Shown in pieces: positions 31,503 to 39,690 of a DNA stretch of 64,000 bases. The stretch covers positions 1-64,000 of the forward strand of contig CAIKLP010000046.1 of NCBI GenBank assembly GCA_903828245.1, read 5' to 3'. Position 1 is the stretch's first letter; each line of letters starts with the position of its first letter. A program made the translations under genes and the position numbers. The DNA comes from an uncultured bacterium. Lineage in GTDB: Bacteria > Bacteroidota > Bacteroidia > Sphingobacteriales > Sphingobacteriaceae. The notes below the pieces were generated by a model. The model did not search any database and was not told the origin of the DNA. It saw only the letters and a list, made by a program, of their open reading frames with translations.

Positions 31503-32693
31503 ATGAATTACAAAAAATGGATTTTAGTATTAATCACTAACTTATTAATTGTTGCATTGTTAGGTTTTTTGATGCGATACAAAATTGCTTTTTCTTTCCC
31601 ATATCTTGAGCAAAAACATTTACAACATGCACATTCACATTTTGCTTTTGCCGCCTGGATTAGCCAAGCATTATATCTTATGTTGATTTATTTTCTAGAT
31701 CAACATATTCAGCTAAATTGGAAAAAATACAATTTAATTCTAATTGCAAATACGGTTTTTTCTGTTGGAATGATGATATCTTTTATATTATATGGGTATC
31801 ATATTTCATCAAATACATTTTCTTTCCTTATTGTTTTAACCGCTGTGTTGTTCAGCTTTTTTTTTATAAAAGACACTTTAAAGTTTAAAGAACAAGCTTT
31901 TGTTAAGCACTGGTTTTATGCGGCATTGTTTTTTAATTTCATTTCAAATTTCGGAACATTTTATATAGCTTATTTAATGATAAGCAAATCGTACCAACAA
32001 GATGTTCATCTAGCAAGTGTTTATTTTTATTTGCATTTTCAATATAATGGCTGGTTTATCTTTTCTTGTTTTGGTTTGATGTGCTATCAGTTATTAAAAA
32101 ATATGCAAATAAAAAATTCGATGGCAATTTTCTGGGTGTTTTTCTTATCAACTTTCCCTAGTTATTTTTTATCAATTTTATGGTTTAAAATCCCTTTATC
32201 ACTATATATAATAGTAGTCTTATCATCTTTGTTGCAGCTACTAACATGGGTCTATTTATTGCTTCAGATTTCAACACATAAAAAGAAGTTTGTATTATCA
32301 ACCGATAAGAATTTTTCAAGAATTGTTTGGGTAATTTTATTTTCGTTTACACTCAAATTAATTTTTCAATTGGTTTCAACCGTTCCATTTATTAGTCACA
32401 TAGCCTATAGCTTAAGATCAATTGTTATTGCTTATTTGCACTTGGTTTTATTAGTAATTATCTCCATGTTCATACTTCACTATTTATTTAGATATATTCT
32501 GCTCAAATCAATCTCTAAGTACATTTATTATTTTCTAATTATTATCATCATAAATGAGATTTTGTTAGGCATTCAGGGCTTTGCAGGCATGTTTACGATA
32601 AGCATTCTAAACATCCAGTATTATCTATTTTTCATTAGTATTTTCATTGTATTAAGCGTAATCTCTATTTTTAGGCATATCCAAACTTTATGA
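31503..32693 (+). CDS. Polytopic membrane protein with conserved-looking histidines, unknown function
   Basis: This 396-residue protein has about ten to twelve hydrophobic helices. Histidines cluster at the start of helix 2 (H39, H42, H44, H46 in HLQHAHSHFAFAAW) and recur at H178 in YLHFQYNGWF and in later helices (SHIAYSLR, AYLHLVLL, ILHYLF). That pattern resembles membrane heme or metal sites, as in heme-copper oxidase-like proteins, but I cannot match a known motif. Its place near the nos genes and a fasciclin lipoprotein suggests a respiratory or nitrogen-oxide role; this is inference. Confidence 0.7.
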   Translation: MNYKKWILVLITNLLIVALLGFLMRYKIAFSFPYLEQKHLQHAHSHFAFAAWISQALYLMLIYFLDQHIQLNWKKYNLILIANTVFSVGMMISFILYGYHISSNTFSFLIVLTAVLFSFFFIKDTLKFKEQAFVKHWFYAALFFNFISNFGTFYIAYLMISKSYQQDVHLASVYFYLHFQYNGWFIFSCFGLMCYQLLKNMQIKNSMAIFWVFFLSTFPSYFLSILWFKIPLSLYIIVVLSSLLQLLTWVYLLLQISTHKKKFVLSTDKNFSRIVWVILFSFTLKLIFQLVSTVPFISHIAYSLRSIVIAYLHLVLLVIISMFILHYLFRYILLKSISKYIYYFLIIIIINEILLGIQGFAGMFTISILNIQYYLFFISIFIVLSVISIFRHIQTL

Positions 32694-33452: not shown

Positions 33453-34220
33453 TTAATGATCTTTCTTGTTGAATTTTCTTAGTGAAATCATAAAAGGGAT
33501 AATCATCCATAAAAATAAAAGTGAGGAGGAAAAGAATATTCCCCAACCGGTGCCAAATGTTTGTTTGAATACTGCTCCTGTAAACCCAAGCATAGCGGAT
33601 AGGTCTAGTTGCAGTAGGATTACTATTCTTGATAAATCTATTGGGTTTAAAGCAGCTATTATGGCAATCCAATTTTCCATTGGATAATCTGCTAGTTGAA
33701 ATAATAGAAACATAATTAGGCCATCAAATAATAAAGAGAAGAAAAGCCAAATTAAAATTGACATTCCAATCCCTTTAGCTTTGTCTCTAGCTATGATAGA
33801 GCATAAGAATGCTAAGGAAGTAAATATTACCGATATAATACAACCCATAACAATTAGAATAATGCCTATTAAGTTTGGACTGTAAAGTAATATTGGAATT
33901 CCAGCGCCAATTATAAATGAAATAATAAGTGATGTGTTTAGCCCTAAATATAAGCTAATCCAAATTTTATTTCTTTTGATAGGCTGACTAATTAAAAGCT
34001 CTATAAATTCTGAGCTATTATAAATATATATAGTGGAAAATATGATTGCTACTAGCGGAACATTAAGTAGTATTAAATTTAACAAACTTAACAACCCTTT
34101 AGCTTCATTATCTTCTAGGCTAAACATACTAAATGACATGATCGCTAACAGAAGTGTATAGAATAGAATTATTTTATTTCTTAATATATCTAGCATTACA
34201 AATTTAATGATTCTATTCAT
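33453..34220 (-). CDS. nosY: NosY-like ABC transporter permease
   Basis: The 255-residue membrane protein has six hydrophobic segments and is the last gene of the nos operon. NosDFY together support maturation of the CuZ site of nitrous oxide reductase, NosFY as an ABC complex that works with periplasmic NosD. The assignment rests on the permease layout (QPIKRNKIWISLYLG near the middle) and on its coupling to nosF through an ATGA overlap. ABC-2-type permeases diverge strongly, so sequence alone would be weak evidence. Confidence 0.88.
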   Translation of the reverse strand: MNRIIKFVMLDILRNKIILFYTLLLAIMSFSMFSLEDNEAKGLLSLLNLILLNVPLVAIIFSTIYIYNSSEFIELLISQPIKRNKIWISLYLGLNTSLIISFIIGAGIPILLYSPNLIGIILIVMGCIISVIFTSLAFLCSIIARDKAKGIGMSILIWLFFSLLFDGLIMFLLFQLADYPMENWIAIIAALNPIDLSRIVILLQLDLSAMLGFTGAVFKQTFGTGWGIFFSSSLLFLWMIIPFMISLRKFNKKDH

Positions 34221-34927
34221 ATGAGTTGTGCTTTAAGAATAGTTGAAATAGCTTTAGATAATTTTTCTTCTCCAGTTTTGTTTTTAAGTTCTTCTACTGT
34301 TTGGTGTATCAGTAATTCACCATCTTGCATGAATACAATTTCTGAAACGAGTTCTTCTAAATCGCTCAATAGGTGAGAGGTTATTAAAATTAATTTGCCC
34401 TTAGATTTTTCTAATAACATTTTTTCTTTTAATATTTCAGCCGAAATTGGATCAAGCCCTGCAGTTGGTTCGTCTAATATATATACAAGAGGATTGAACA
34501 TAAAGGCTAATGCGGCACTTACTTTTTGTGTGGTGCCTCCAGAAAGCGTTCGCATTCTTTTGTTTAAAATTTGATCTAATTTATATGCTTTATATAGATC
34601 TTCGTCAAATGATAGATGGCCGCCTCTAAGCTCTTTCATCATTTCAACTATTTGCCCAATACTCATATTCTCTGGATACTTGCCTATTTGCGGCATATAT
34701 CCAATATAATTTCGGTAATCAGTTTCGTTGAAAATAGATTTATTGTTAAATGTAATTTCTCCCGAATCTGGCAGAACCATACCGAGGATACTTTTTATAA
34801 GTGTTGTTTTACCACAACTATTTGGACCGATTAAAGCAATGCATTCCGACTGATTAAATTTAGTCGAAATTCCTTTTAGAACTGCTAATTTATTGTATTT
34901 TTTTCTTAATTCTATTAGCTCAATCAT
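34217..34927 (-). CDS. nosF: NosF-like ABC transporter ATP-binding protein
   Basis: The 236-residue ATPase shows Walker A GPNSCGKT (34-41), the signature LSGGTTQK (128-135) and Walker B with DEPTAGLDP (152-160). LSGGTTQKV is the form usual in NosF proteins. It would power NosY in supplying a sulfur or copper-site component to NosD and NosZ. It overlaps nosD upstream and nosY downstream by 4 bp each. Confidence 0.93.
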   Translation of the reverse strand: MIELIELRKKYNKLAVLKGISTKFNQSECIALIGPNSCGKTTLIKSILGMVLPDSGEITFNNKSIFNETDYRNYIGYMPQIGKYPENMSIGQIVEMMKELRGGHLSFDEDLYKAYKLDQILNKRMRTLSGGTTQKVSAALAFMFNPLVYILDEPTAGLDPISAEILKEKMLLEKSKGKLILITSHLLSDLEELVSEIVFMQDGELLIHQTVEELKNKTGEEKLSKAISTILKAQLI

Positions 34928-36162
34928 ATAACTACTGAATGCATTCGTGGTTTATTATCAATAAAATTTTCTGGAGTTAAACTAGGTATTATTTTTTCTG
35001 ATTTGTCTAATAAGCTAACCATAAAACTTCTAAACAATAGCATTAATGAAGAATTAGATTCGACCATAACGGAGAATAAACTTAATGGCCGATAGGGAAC
35101 GTCTCCAAATTTATCTTTGTCTAAATCGTAGCCTTCATATTTATCCCAATAATTTTCATTAAAGGTGTTAAGCACTAAAGTTCCATTTGTACCGATGTCA
35201 AAAGTGTTCCCTAAGAAATTATTCTCTCGAATAATATTATCCATGCAACTTGCTTGAATTTTCATTCCCCACCCATTTTCTTTCAATGTATTATGCTCCA
35301 CTAATATTCTATTAGTCCCTTCCATGTAAATGCCAGAAGTGTTGTTGTTAAACCTATTGTGAAGAATATAGCTATCTGAAATTTCTTTTAACAACAGCCC
35401 ATAAGCTGCATCACCCCAATTATTGAGAAAGTAATTATTAAACATTTTTACACGGTGGGTAAACATTACAGATACTCCAGCACCATTATTTTTAAACACA
35501 TTAGAGATATAGGCATCATCATTCGAAAACATAAAATGAAGACCATAACGAATATTTGCAAAGGAAATATTTCGCCAAATAACAGAATTTGTTACAAATT
35601 CGAAATATATACCATCTCTATGCCCATTAATTTTATTGCCTACAATAATAATACTATCACTTTTCCAACAATGAATTCCATTTCCTATTTGTTGTTCTTC
35701 AACGCCCTTAGCATGTATTCGATTATGCTCGATTTTACAATGGTTTGCTTGTTGTAAGTAGATCCCAAAAAAATTATCGCGAAGTTCGTTGTTCTTGATA
35801 ATCACATTATCGCAGTTATAAATTTTTATAGCACCTGGATCATCAAGAGTTGAAAATCCTGAATTCTGAATGATTAAGCCTTGAACTATTACACCACTAG
35901 ATTTTATACTTAGAATTTCGTATTTATTTTGTCCATCAAGCACTGGCTTGTTTATTCCTAGTAGCGTAATTTTTTTTTGAATAATGATATTTCCTTCTTT
36001 ATATGTTCCCTCATGAATAACAATGGTGTCTTCATCATGGGCCTCAGACAAGGCTTTTTTTATTTTTTGATGGGAGTATTTAGCCCCTACATGTATATTT
36101 TTAGCACAGATAGGCAAGCATATTATTAGCAATAAAATTATAAATACTGGAATGCGCATCAT
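34924..36162 (-). CDS. nosD: NosD, nitrous oxide reductase maturation protein
   Basis: The exported 412-residue protein has a signal peptide (about 1-20, ending ICAKN) and then right-handed parallel beta-helix repeats of the carbohydrate-binding/CASH type (GIYLQQANHCKIEHNRI, GIYMEGTNRILVEHN). The C-terminus carries the typical NENYWDKYEGYDLDKDKFGD and PYRPLSLFSVMVE segments. NosD works with NosFY to assemble the CuZ cluster. I start at the first ATG of the ATGATG overlapping the nosL stop; the eight upstream codons lie within nosL. Confidence 0.95.
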   Translation of the reverse strand: MMRIPVFIILLLIICLPICAKNIHVGAKYSHQKIKKALSEAHDEDTIVIHEGTYKEGNIIIQKKITLLGINKPVLDGQNKYEILSIKSSGVIVQGLIIQNSGFSTLDDPGAIKIYNCDNVIIKNNELRDNFFGIYLQQANHCKIEHNRIHAKGVEEQQIGNGIHCWKSDSIIIVGNKINGHRDGIYFEFVTNSVIWRNISFANIRYGLHFMFSNDDAYISNVFKNNGAGVSVMFTHRVKMFNNYFLNNWGDAAYGLLLKEISDSYILHNRFNNNTSGIYMEGTNRILVEHNTLKENGWGMKIQASCMDNIIRENNFLGNTFDIGTNGTLVLNTFNENYWDKYEGYDLDKDKFGDVPYRPLSLFSVMVESNSSLMLLFRSFMVSLLDKSEKIIPSLTPENFIDNKPRMHSVVI

Positions 36163-37163
36163 TTTTTTGAAAGTAATTCTTCCCAAGTGATATCTTTTGC
36201 AGCGAAATAATTTTTATAAACTATCGCAGAATCTAAATTACTGAATGCCGCAATTCCACCTCCCATAGGACTAGCAATACCATTACCTTGGATGAAAATC
36301 AAATTTTCTATGTTTATTAGTGCGTTATTATTTAAGTAATTCGAGGCAAAGTATGTTTTTATTTTAAACGTCTCCGTTTTTTGCTCTTTCACGAAAGAAG
36401 TCATGCAGTCAATGTCATCAAATTTGTATGCTTTCCCATGATTTGTTTTTAGTTCACAAGAAAATCTTGGATCAACAATTGTCATTCTACAAAAATCACA
36501 GGGGTCTGAGTTGTATTTTACACTTACTGGTTCGTCGTTCGAACAACCAGTTATTCCTCCAAAGCAAATGCTTATTAAGATAAGATTTAAAGCTGTGTTT
36601 AATTTTTTACTTTTTCGTTCTAAGTACATTCCAATTAGCATAAATATTCCAGATAAGATAAATAAAACACCTCCAATATCAGGTATTGAGTAGGCACCAA
36701 AATTCAATAGTTGTTTAAATCCAATTAATGGTGGTTGATAGGCCATGCCAGGAACTATGATTGCTGCTGCTGGATTTAGATTGTGTCCATAATCATATTC
36801 CCATCTCCAAAAATCAACCATAGCGATAATTCCAAATGCTACAAATGCAAAAAATAGGATAGGTAACATTTTTTTACTTTTTGTTAAGGCAATTACAATT
36901 GAAAATATGGAAAAGAATAAAATAATATATGGTAAAACAGTAAATTCAATAAAATCGTTTTCGTGTAGGGTTTTCATACCTATGTAATGATTTAAGCCAT
37001 TAATAATATCAACGGCACCAGCTAATTTATTTGAGTAGATAAGCAAACGCAAGCCTTCAGGATATTGAGGTGCATCTAAATCTATTCTCCAAATTGGAAC
37101 AAATATCGAAACGAATAAAAATATTGCTGAAAGTATTAAAAGTATTTGAGTAATTTTTTTCAT
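36159..37163 (-). CDS. nosL: Membrane protein fused to NosL copper chaperone
   Basis: The 334-residue protein has two parts. Residues 1-180 hold about five membrane spans with a large exported loop (FVPIWRIDLDAPQYPEGL). Residues 205-334 are a NosL domain with the copper-binding CDFCRM (222-227), DIDCMTSFV (about 251-259) and a GNGIASPMGGG segment. At the join, residues 185-207 read like a complete lipoprotein signal (Lys-rich start, hydrophobic run, GITGC with Cys207). NosL delivers copper to NosZ. An internal start at Met179 could also yield free NosL. Genes for the membrane part often stand separately in other nos clusters, as far as I recall. Confidence 0.9.
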   Translation of the reverse strand: MKKITQILLILSAIFLFVSIFVPIWRIDLDAPQYPEGLRLLIYSNKLAGAVDIINGLNHYIGMKTLHENDFIEFTVLPYIILFFSIFSIVIALTKSKKMLPILFFAFVAFGIIAMVDFWRWEYDYGHNLNPAAAIIVPGMAYQPPLIGFKQLLNFGAYSIPDIGGVLFILSGIFMLIGMYLERKSKKLNTALNLILISICFGGITGCSNDEPVSVKYNSDPCDFCRMTIVDPRFSCELKTNHGKAYKFDDIDCMTSFVKEQKTETFKIKTYFASNYLNNNALINIENLIFIQGNGIASPMGGGIAAFSNLDSAIVYKNYFAAKDITWEELLSKK

Positions 37164-37214: not shown

Positions 37215-39197
37215 TTATTTTACTTTTGAGTTGGAAGTGGTATTTCCTAAACTATATGTTAAGGGAACTAAACTTCTTTTGGGTGAAACTCTTACGTATC
37301 CTTGCATTTCTTGATGTAAGGCGCTACAAAAATCTGTACAGTACATTGGGAACATTCCCACTCTATCTGGCGTCCATTTTAGCGTTGAAGTTTCTCCTGG
37401 CATAATTAAAAGTTCTGCGTTATTTGCTCCTTTAATTGCAAAACCATGAGGTACATCCCAATCTTGTTCAAGGTTAGTAACATGGAAGTATACTTCATCA
37501 CCCATTTTAATTCCTTCAATATTATCTGGTGAGAAATGGGAACGAATGGAGGTCATGTATACATGCACTTTATTTCCATCCCTTACAACTTTAGATTCCT
37601 TTTCGCCCTTTGCTACATACTTATGTTTGTTATCATCAATTTTAAAAATCTTAGTTTGATTTTTTGAGATCAAATCTGCTGGTACAGCTTGTGCATAATG
37701 TGGTTCGCCAATTGTTGGGAAGTCTAATATTAACTGCATCTTATCACCCGAGATATCAAATAATTGTGCACTTTGAGCCAATTCTGGTCCAGTTGGTAAG
37801 TAACGATCTTTTGTAATTTTATTATAAGCAATTAAATATTTAGCCGATGGTTTCTTACTATCTCCACCTGGTATACAAATGTGACCTACAGAATAGAAAG
37901 TAGATGCTCTATCTAATACTTTTAAATCTTTTATATTCCATTTTACCACTTCCGACGAAACAAAGAAAGAAGTATATGCATTTCCTTTTCCATCAAATTC
38001 AGTATGTAATGGACCTAATCCTGGTTTTTTAACTTCTCCATATAAAGCCGCTTCATATTTAATTACTGGAATTCCATCATAGGCTCCATCAAAAGATTTA
38101 TTAGCGATGGCCGATTGGATTTTATCAAAGCTAAATACTGGAATAATTGCTGCAAGCTTTCCACTACCTACGATAAATTCACCGGTTGGATCTACGTCGC
38201 AACCATGCGGTGATTTAGGACATGGAATCATGTAACAAATATCTTTTAATTCTTTAGCATCTAAAACCAATACGGTATTTATAATTTCAGAAGTGGCGGT
38301 ATGTGTTGATTCATTATAAGTATTATGAGCATACTTAACCGATTCAGTTTTACCCTTACCAGCTTTGATATATTCTTCTGCTTTTTTCCAATTTACCGCC
38401 ATGATAAAGTCTTTGTCTTTTTGAGATGCATTTACTTCTAATAAAGTATTTGCTTGCTCGGTATTATAACAAGAGAAGAAAAACCATCCATGTGATTTGC
38501 CTTTACCCGCGTGACTTAGATCGAAGTTTACCCCAGGGCAACGAATTTGAAATGATAAATTCATTTTACCTGTTACTTTATCTACACCAATGAAGCTTAA
38601 ATGTCCTTTGAAATTTTCTTTATAAGAATTAATTGGAACATCTCCATTTGAGTTATCTCCTGGTACACTGAATCTTGTTCCTGCAACAACATATTCTGTA
38701 TTTTCAGTTATGAATGGAGAAGAATGGTTTCCTGCACTATTTGGCAACTCGATTATTTCAGCTGTTCTAAAAGATTTTAAATCAATACGAGCAACTCGAG
38801 GTGTGTTATTAGCATTTCCAAATACCCAACGACCATCAATTTCTCCATTTGTTTGAGAAAGTTCTGTATGATGTAAATCGTCCCAAGGCACCATGCCATG
38901 TGATGTATTTAACATTGGTTTTGTTTCTTCTGAATAACCCCAACTCTTTTCTGGATCAACAGAAAATACAGGAATAACTCTGAGTAAACGTCCACTAGGA
39001 AGGCCATATACACTCATCTGTCCACTAAACCCACCACTTACAAAGTTGTAATAGGTATCATATTTTCCTGGAGCTACATATGTTTTCTCAGCAGCATCGC
39101 CCGATACTGCATTGCTTGCATTTTTAGGTTTACAAGCGTTTAATATAACCATTGAACTTATCGCAAGTGCAACAGCTAGGATTGTATTTTTTTTCAT
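37215..39197 (-). CDS. nosZ: Nitrous oxide reductase, Sec-type (clade II-like)
   Basis: The 660-residue periplasmic enzyme reduces N2O to N2. It has a lipoprotein signal (Cys22 in VILNAC) and no twin-arginine motif, so export is by Sec, as in clade II NosZ. The beta-propeller supplies CuZ histidines, the first at about 109-110 (WDDLHHTELS) with others in NSAGNHSSPF and CPKSPHGCDVDP. The C-terminal cupredoxin domain carries the CuA ligands C620, C624, H628 and M631 (CTDFCSALHQEM). It follows a cytochrome c lipoprotein gene, a probable electron donor, and precedes the accessory genes nosL, nosD, nosF and nosY. Confidence 0.97.
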   Translation of the reverse strand: MKKNTILAVALAISSMVILNACKPKNASNAVSGDAAEKTYVAPGKYDTYYNFVSGGFSGQMSVYGLPSGRLLRVIPVFSVDPEKSWGYSEETKPMLNTSHGMVPWDDLHHTELSQTNGEIDGRWVFGNANNTPRVARIDLKSFRTAEIIELPNSAGNHSSPFITENTEYVVAGTRFSVPGDNSNGDVPINSYKENFKGHLSFIGVDKVTGKMNLSFQIRCPGVNFDLSHAGKGKSHGWFFFSCYNTEQANTLLEVNASQKDKDFIMAVNWKKAEEYIKAGKGKTESVKYAHNTYNESTHTATSEIINTVLVLDAKELKDICYMIPCPKSPHGCDVDPTGEFIVGSGKLAAIIPVFSFDKIQSAIANKSFDGAYDGIPVIKYEAALYGEVKKPGLGPLHTEFDGKGNAYTSFFVSSEVVKWNIKDLKVLDRASTFYSVGHICIPGGDSKKPSAKYLIAYNKITKDRYLPTGPELAQSAQLFDISGDKMQLILDFPTIGEPHYAQAVPADLISKNQTKIFKIDDNKHKYVAKGEKESKVVRDGNKVHVYMTSIRSHFSPDNIEGIKMGDEVYFHVTNLEQDWDVPHGFAIKGANNAELLIMPGETSTLKWTPDRVGMFPMYCTDFCSALHQEMQGYVRVSPKRSLVPLTYSLGNTTSNSKVK

Positions 39198-39213: not shown

Positions 39214-39690
39214 TTATTTTACTCCGTCAATTTTTCTCATGAATTCTAGTATGTGTCTAGCCTCATCATCTGTTAATCCTTGATTTGGCATTCTCACTAA
39301 ACAGATCTCTAATTGAGCCTGTACCTCTGGGTCTTTATTTATCATAGGATCTGGATTAGTGATAAAGTTCATGATCCATTGTGGTTGCCTGCGAATAGTT
39401 ACCCCATTCCAACCTGGTCCTACTAGCTTTTCATCTGTAGTTTTATGGCATGAAGAACATTTTACGCCATACACTGCTTCTCCGTCGGTTGCCATGGTTT
39501 GGTCTAATGTTGCTGACAATGCTACATTTGAAAATTTACCTTCACCACGTTTTGGATCATAATCAGAAACTTCTTTGTTTTCTGTTGACTCGTTGTTTGA
39601 TTCGTTTTCTGTGGCTTCAGTTTGTTTATTGCTTCCTCCACAAGAAGCAAGTACTAGGCACATCGCTATTAGCGTGAATATTTTTCTCAT
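39214..39690 (-). CDS. Cytochrome c lipoprotein of the nos operon
   Basis: The 158-residue protein has a lipoprotein signal (Cys17 in VLASC), a Glu/Asn/Ser-rich tether (about 20-45) and a class I cytochrome c domain. The heme site is CSSCH (78-82), with Met134 (RMPNQGL) the likely axial ligand. It is the first gene of the nos operon, 16 bp before nosZ, and would donate electrons to NosZ at the membrane. Such c-type cytochromes commonly precede clade II nosZ. Confidence 0.94.
   Translation of the reverse strand: MRKIFTLIAMCLVLASCGGSNKQTEATENESNNESTENKEVSDYDPKRGEGKFSNVALSATLDQTMATDGEAVYGVKCSSCHKTTDEKLVGPGWNGVTIRRQPQWIMNFITNPDPMINKDPEVQAQLEICLVRMPNQGLTDDEARHILEFMRKIDGVK

Follow-up and report, generated by a model that had tools for sequence, protein, structure and literature searches.

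Gene content of the locus

The window—the whole stretch of 64,000 nucleotides that was analysed, from an uncultured member of the Sphingobacteriaceae—contains a clade II nos cluster with the order cytochrome c–nosZ–[NosB-NosL fusion]–nosD–nosF–nosY. The genes are:

39214..39690, reverse strand: cytochrome c gene upstream of nosZ (PF00034)
37215..39197, reverse strand: nosZ, Sec-dependent clade II N2O reductase (TIGR04246, E 1.1e-279)
36159..37163, reverse strand: NosB-NosL fused gene, 334 amino acids, ATG at 37163 and TGA at 36161-36159; full-length homologues are known
34924..36186, reverse strand: nosD, with its likely ATG start at about 36162 (TIGR04247, E 2.7e-129)
34217..34927, reverse strand: nosF-type ABC ATPase (PF00005)
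33453..34220, reverse strand: nosY-type ABC-2 permease (PF12679)

The known biological sink for N2O, a greenhouse gas, is the enzyme NosZ. The open reading frame from 37163 to 36159, of 334 codons, has no internal stop, and its preliminary description as one frame with two functions is borne out. The stop codon of the fusion and the likely start codon of nosD share the tetranucleotide ATGA (36159-36162, reverse strand), an overlap that suggests coupled translation. The fused gene is present as a single copy in the whole genome (1.95 Mb in 99 contigs), which also encodes both Lgt and LspA. Just past nosY, on the opposite strand, lies a fasciclin-domain lipoprotein-like gene (PF02469; 32760-33323, forward strand), adjoined by a gene for a 396-residue membrane protein (31503-32693) that has no Pfam match.

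The NosB and NosL parts of the fused protein

The features of the fused gene are:

36612..37163, reverse strand: NosB part, residues 1-184, with four spans and loops of periplasmic beta-strands (hydropathy, AlphaFold, synteny)
37089..37145, reverse strand: span 1, residues 7-25 (hydropathy)
36975..36995, reverse strand: NosB motif LNHYIGM, residues 57-63, predicted periplasmic (motif per PMC9697520)
36882..36938, reverse strand: span 2, residues 76-94 (hydropathy)
36810..36866, reverse strand: span 3, residues 100-118 (hydropathy)
36780..36791, reverse strand: NosB motif YGHN, residues 125-128, predicted on the periplasmic side (motif per PMC9697520)
36621..36677, reverse strand: span 4, residues 163-181 (hydropathy)
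36627..36629, reverse strand: Met179, a proposed internal start, not conserved
36543..36620, reverse strand: internal type II (lipoprotein) signal, residues 182-207, with ERKSKK, a hydrophobic stretch and GITGC
36543..36545, reverse strand: lipobox Cys207 (TGT), at which lipidation and cutting are predicted, conserved in fused and split relatives
36162..36545, reverse strand: NosL part, residues 207-334 (PF05573; PDB 7osf_H, 7og7)
36483..36500, reverse strand: copper motif CDFCRM, residues 222-227, of the clade II NosL form CXXCXM; invariant in 61 rows

By profile and predicted fold, the C-terminal part is a clade II NosL. PF05573 (NosL) matches residues 218-316 (E 1.2e-7) with 32.6 bits, exceeding the gathering cut-off of 24, and all 61 of 61 fused members match it at E ≤ 1. 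Compared with solved chains the NosL profile finds PDB 7osf_H (E 4.8e-6), and a Foldseek search with the AlphaFold model recovers the NosL fold in 7og7 (E 8.1e-5, TM-score 0.75 on the target). The CXXCXM form is that of the Cu(I) motif of clade II NosL (PMC6530538). The NosL proteins of Pseudomonas stutzeri, Paracoccus denitrificans and Shewanella denitrificans (PDB 7osf, 7og7) share the fold, the Cu(I) CXM core and a lipoprotein anchor with this part, but they are products of stand-alone genes, and that of P. denitrificans has the clade I motif CXMX3H.

Residues 1-184 are NosB, as judged by the presence of both LNHYIGM and YGHN, which are NosB motifs (PMC9697520), by the flanking clade II nosZ and nosD (37215-39197 and about 36162), and by homologues at the same cluster position. 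His59 and Met63 are invariant across 114-115 NosB rows; in the same rows YGHN is nearly invariant and His127 near-invariant. NosB is a polytopic membrane protein of four or six spans (PMC11388526), with four found here by both hydropathy and AlphaFold, and Wolinella has been reported to require it for N2O respiration (cited in PMC9697520). It had been suggested that the membrane part may be an uncharacterised copper-handling partner of NosL; its tie to NosL stands, and the motifs and synteny identify it as the known protein NosB.

Homologues of NosB occupy the same place in the clusters of Deinococcus, Thermomicrobium, Gemmatirosa and the archaeon Natronorubrum, the gene order being nosZ–NosB–NosL–nosD in Gemmatirosa and nosZ–NosB–nosD in the other three. 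A separate nosL beside the NosB homologue is absent from the listed stretch of Deinococcus and of Natronorubrum, and in Thermomicrobium nosL sits farther down the cluster. On a plasmid of the haloarchaeon Natronorubrum aibiense the NosB homologue comes immediately after a Tat-type nosZ, in agreement with reports that NosB is not strictly limited to Sec-type clusters (PMC11409646).

The preliminary description gave the membrane domain five spans. Family-averaged hydropathy assigns it four, and the fifth hydrophobic segment (residues 190-208) is the lipoprotein signal; AlphaFold agrees, with helices of the fusion at residues 3-19, 73-94, 99-127, 163-182 and 190-204. The net charges of successive loops (+1.3, −3.3, +2.5, −1.1 and +1.9) conform to the positive-inside rule for a cytoplasmic N-terminus, a pattern that would put both NosB motifs, as well as NosL, on the periplasmic side. 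NosB modelled alone has a pLDDT of 96.7 and a pTM of 0.89, while the signal helix in the model of the fusion is short (190-204) and of only moderate confidence (about 68-79); a model of this kind cannot reveal cutting.

The model of NosB alone shows four membrane helices and a beta-sheet on the periplasmic side, formed from strands of both loops. The solved structures that Foldseek ranks closest to it are TARP gamma-5, claudins and a designed claudin fold, with E from 0.0076 upward, a probability of at most 0.99 and TM-scores near 0.5, and this borderline likeness to claudin-type folds is possibly convergent. In relatives, Pfam DUF4131 matches the NosB part, seemingly through a shared composition of membrane helices, and the NCBIfam 'lipo-invert' tail was dropped as a weak match (16 bits against a cut-off of 37).

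Fused and separate nosB and nosL genes

The NosB-NosL fusion itself is already known. It is given for Dyadobacter fermentans in PMC9697520, which refers to van Spanning 2011 and Hein et al. 2017; the same paper infers it for the flavobacteria F. azooxidireducens, F. denitrificans and F. crocinum, and gives two genes for others of that group. The Dyadobacter and Flavobacterium proteins have the same order of parts as that of the window, the same place between nosZ and nosD, and both LNHYIGM and YGHN; no difference of kind was found. PMC9697520, in which the word lipoprotein does not occur, takes up neither the internal lipobox nor its conservation. We consider that the universal presence of the buried lipobox, its likely processing, and the recurrence of fusion and fission are useful additions.

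The occurrence of fused and separate genes in relatives was compared, as the preliminary description had proposed, and both forms occur. A match is present in 66 of 301 genomes of the order and, in a phylum-wide draw, in 134 of 396 genomes, with fused and split forms mixed in both; a separate scan of GTDB genomes favours full-length matches by design and is unfit for frequencies. Among the best 17 full-length matches in the order, 15 are, with the window's own left aside, genuine fusions; L010 and L017 (among L002-L017) have a stop between the two parts. Classification of 217 loci with two HMMs gave 123 fused and 94 split, and the 206 distinct frames or pairs among these (113 fused, 93 split) were used in the analyses below.

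It had been noted that a sequencing error at the junction would undo the fusion, and metagenome-assembled sequences can indeed carry indels; nothing more specific speaks for an artefact in which a missed stop or a frameshift joins two genes. The same continuous frame is, however, present in a relative of 89% identity (L032) and in about 96 fused proteins less than 90% identical to one another, several of them from isolates and some from complete chromosomes, and the fusion has been published for cultured strains (PMC9697520). An artefact can thus be practically dismissed.

Where nosB and nosL are separate genes, in other Bacteroidota and in Gemmatimonadota, they have homologous parts, lie adjacent to each other, and encode the same NosL lipobox; they differ from the window gene in forming two frames, often with a 4-base overlap. 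The gap between split genes has a median of 0 bases and is most commonly a 4-base overlap (ATGA), so that a single indel or stop change converts one form to the other. In the split clusters L176, L191, L209, L212 and L215 a second NosL-like gene follows the first one at a distance of a few hundred bases.

The fused and split states were mapped on trees of 181 pairs at less than 90% identity, built quickly and without bootstrap. The tree of concatenated NosB and NosL requires 21 changes by parsimony, at least 14 of them forced by well-supported branches; a few of the changes could be sequencing indels in metagenome-assembled genomes. A NosB-only tree gives 21 changes with 14 forced, and the NosL-only tree, which has few columns, gives 22 with 7 forced. 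A single origin of the fusion is ruled out by the at least 14 switches.

The lipobox at the joint and its likely processing

The internal lipoprotein signal GITGC with Cys207, which had been picked out together with CDFCRM, is present and intact. The protein of the window has a basic n-region, a hydrophobic stretch and a lipobox of the form [GAS]-C, as type II signals do, and departs from them in location: the signal lies at residues 182-207, behind four spans, and not at the N-terminus. It may therefore work like a type II signal without being a standard one.

Conservation at this site was examined in all of the fused and split proteins. A lipobox Cys is present in 113 of 113 fused frames and 93 of 93 split proteins, 14-16 residues upstream of CXXCXM in nearly all; part of its conservation is inherited from recently split forms. 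For these counts the Cys was chosen as the one nearest to the expected distance upstream of CXXCXM, with the preceding residue ignored; most of the few odd preceding residues are due to a neighbouring Cys and vanish once the lipobox-like Cys is taken. With the latter, the preceding residue is Ser (73), Gly (24), Ala (15) or Asn (1) in the fused forms (n = 113) and Ala (44), Ser (27) or Gly (22) in the split forms (n = 93). A PROSITE-type lipobox pattern is found in 108 of the 113 fused proteins' signals and in 85 of the 93 from split genes, as compared with 4.4% of shuffled segments. Over fused-only branches amounting to about 33 substitutions per site, the lipobox Cys is never lost.

The 20 residues before the Cys are variable, being merely hydrophobic with a basic start. 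Only eight positions beyond residue 165 are invariant in 61 aligned fusions: Cys207, C222, C225, M227, D249, C253, P299 and M300. The internal signals resemble those of separate NosL proteins, with a similar letter profile and a median distance from the last Lys or Arg to the Cys of 17 residues, as against 16. Taken together, the conservation of the Cys, the fit to the pattern and the absence of Cys loss along fused-only branches point to selection for a working lipobox and not for a mere span.

What such a lipobox does in the fused protein can be read in more than one way, and we regard it as probable that the clade II NosB-NosL protein is a precursor polyprotein, with an internal type II signal to which Lgt attaches lipid and at which LspA probably cuts. 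NosB would insert through four spans, leaving its two ends in the cytoplasm, and ERKSKK with the following hydrophobic segment would act as an internal type II signal running from cytoplasm to periplasm, thereby exporting NosL. Lgt would then lipidate Cys207, and LspA would most likely cut before it. The products would be NosB, which would retain the spent signal as an added fifth span at its C-terminus, and an ordinary lipid-anchored NosL, both made in equal amounts and at the same place. NosL would hand Cu(I) through CXXCXM to NosD(FY) for the CuZ site of NosZ, and NosB—perhaps by way of His59, Met63 and His127—may help in the supply of electrons or copper.

Post-translational cutting at the lipobox would fit the pattern of conservation best, a pattern that a lipidated but uncut protein would nevertheless show equally. 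The main rival, which we find rather unlikely, is a stable bifunctional protein that stays uncut, either lipidated at Cys207 or held by a plain fifth span, with NosL tethered for direct hand-off of copper. The published view is of one multidomain protein combining both functions (PMC9697520), and the fairly constant spacing between NosB core and Cys (median 44 residues from the core's end, quartiles 42-45) is neutral or slightly favourable to it. A plain uncut span, however, needs neither the Cys nor a small residue before it, yet 113 of 113 fused proteins have both, and a tether is seemingly dispensable, given the frequent switching with separate genes. Nor is the Cys likely to be kept as a copper ligand, since NosL of P. 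denitrificans retains very tight Cu(I) binding when it lacks this Cys (PMC6530538), and the small residue preceding it is kept as well.

An internal start at Met179, yielding free NosL as a lipoprotein, had also been put forward; such a start, there or nearby, could add to the fusion or replace it. In this gene the n-region that would follow is a good one (MYLERKSKK...) and the RNA around Met179 is weakly folded (z +1.46). The methionine is not conserved, with Val in 35 of 61 rows, and an in-frame ATG is found at −35 to −15 relative to the Cys in 46 of 113 fused genes and at −30 to −18 in only 32, counts that refer to ATG, with GTG and TTG starts being common by chance. Methionine shows no enrichment in the −30 to −18 region, where it is rarer than in the NosB part (2.4% and 3.1%, respectively), and we regard an internal start as highly improbable.

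A literature search, mostly outside subscription journals, returned no published case of LspA cutting a signal that lies behind a polytopic domain. A polyprotein that would work in the same manner as proposed for NosB-NosL is FbcH, the cytochrome b/c1 polyprotein of Bradyrhizobium, in which a polytopic protein and an exported protein are separated post-translationally at an internal signal peptide. FbcH differs in that the cut is made by signal peptidase I, no lipid is involved, and the proteins are unrelated.

With slightly less assurance than for the precursor alone, we lean towards a fuller account for the Bacteroidota, in which LspA would cut the NosB-NosL polyprotein at the buried lipobox, the spent signal would stay on NosB, and the fusion would be gained and lost repeatedly, since either form yields one and the same pair of proteins. 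Identical end products from fused or split genes would explain the ease of switching.

Bacteroidota dominate the carriers of clade II nosZ in, for example, wastewater plants (PMC11409646). A pair that recurrently fuses and parts, with a putative cut site in every fused copy, ties NosB to the copper chaperone NosL, in amount as well as physically, and this tie makes the idea that NosB acts in copper supply a testable one. If the proposed processing is correct, an internal-signal polyprotein joins the known substrates of LspA.

A genome of the same family (G151) carries a fused gene and a separate nosB/nosL pair on one contig (L006 and L162), and offers a natural comparison of the two forms within one cell.
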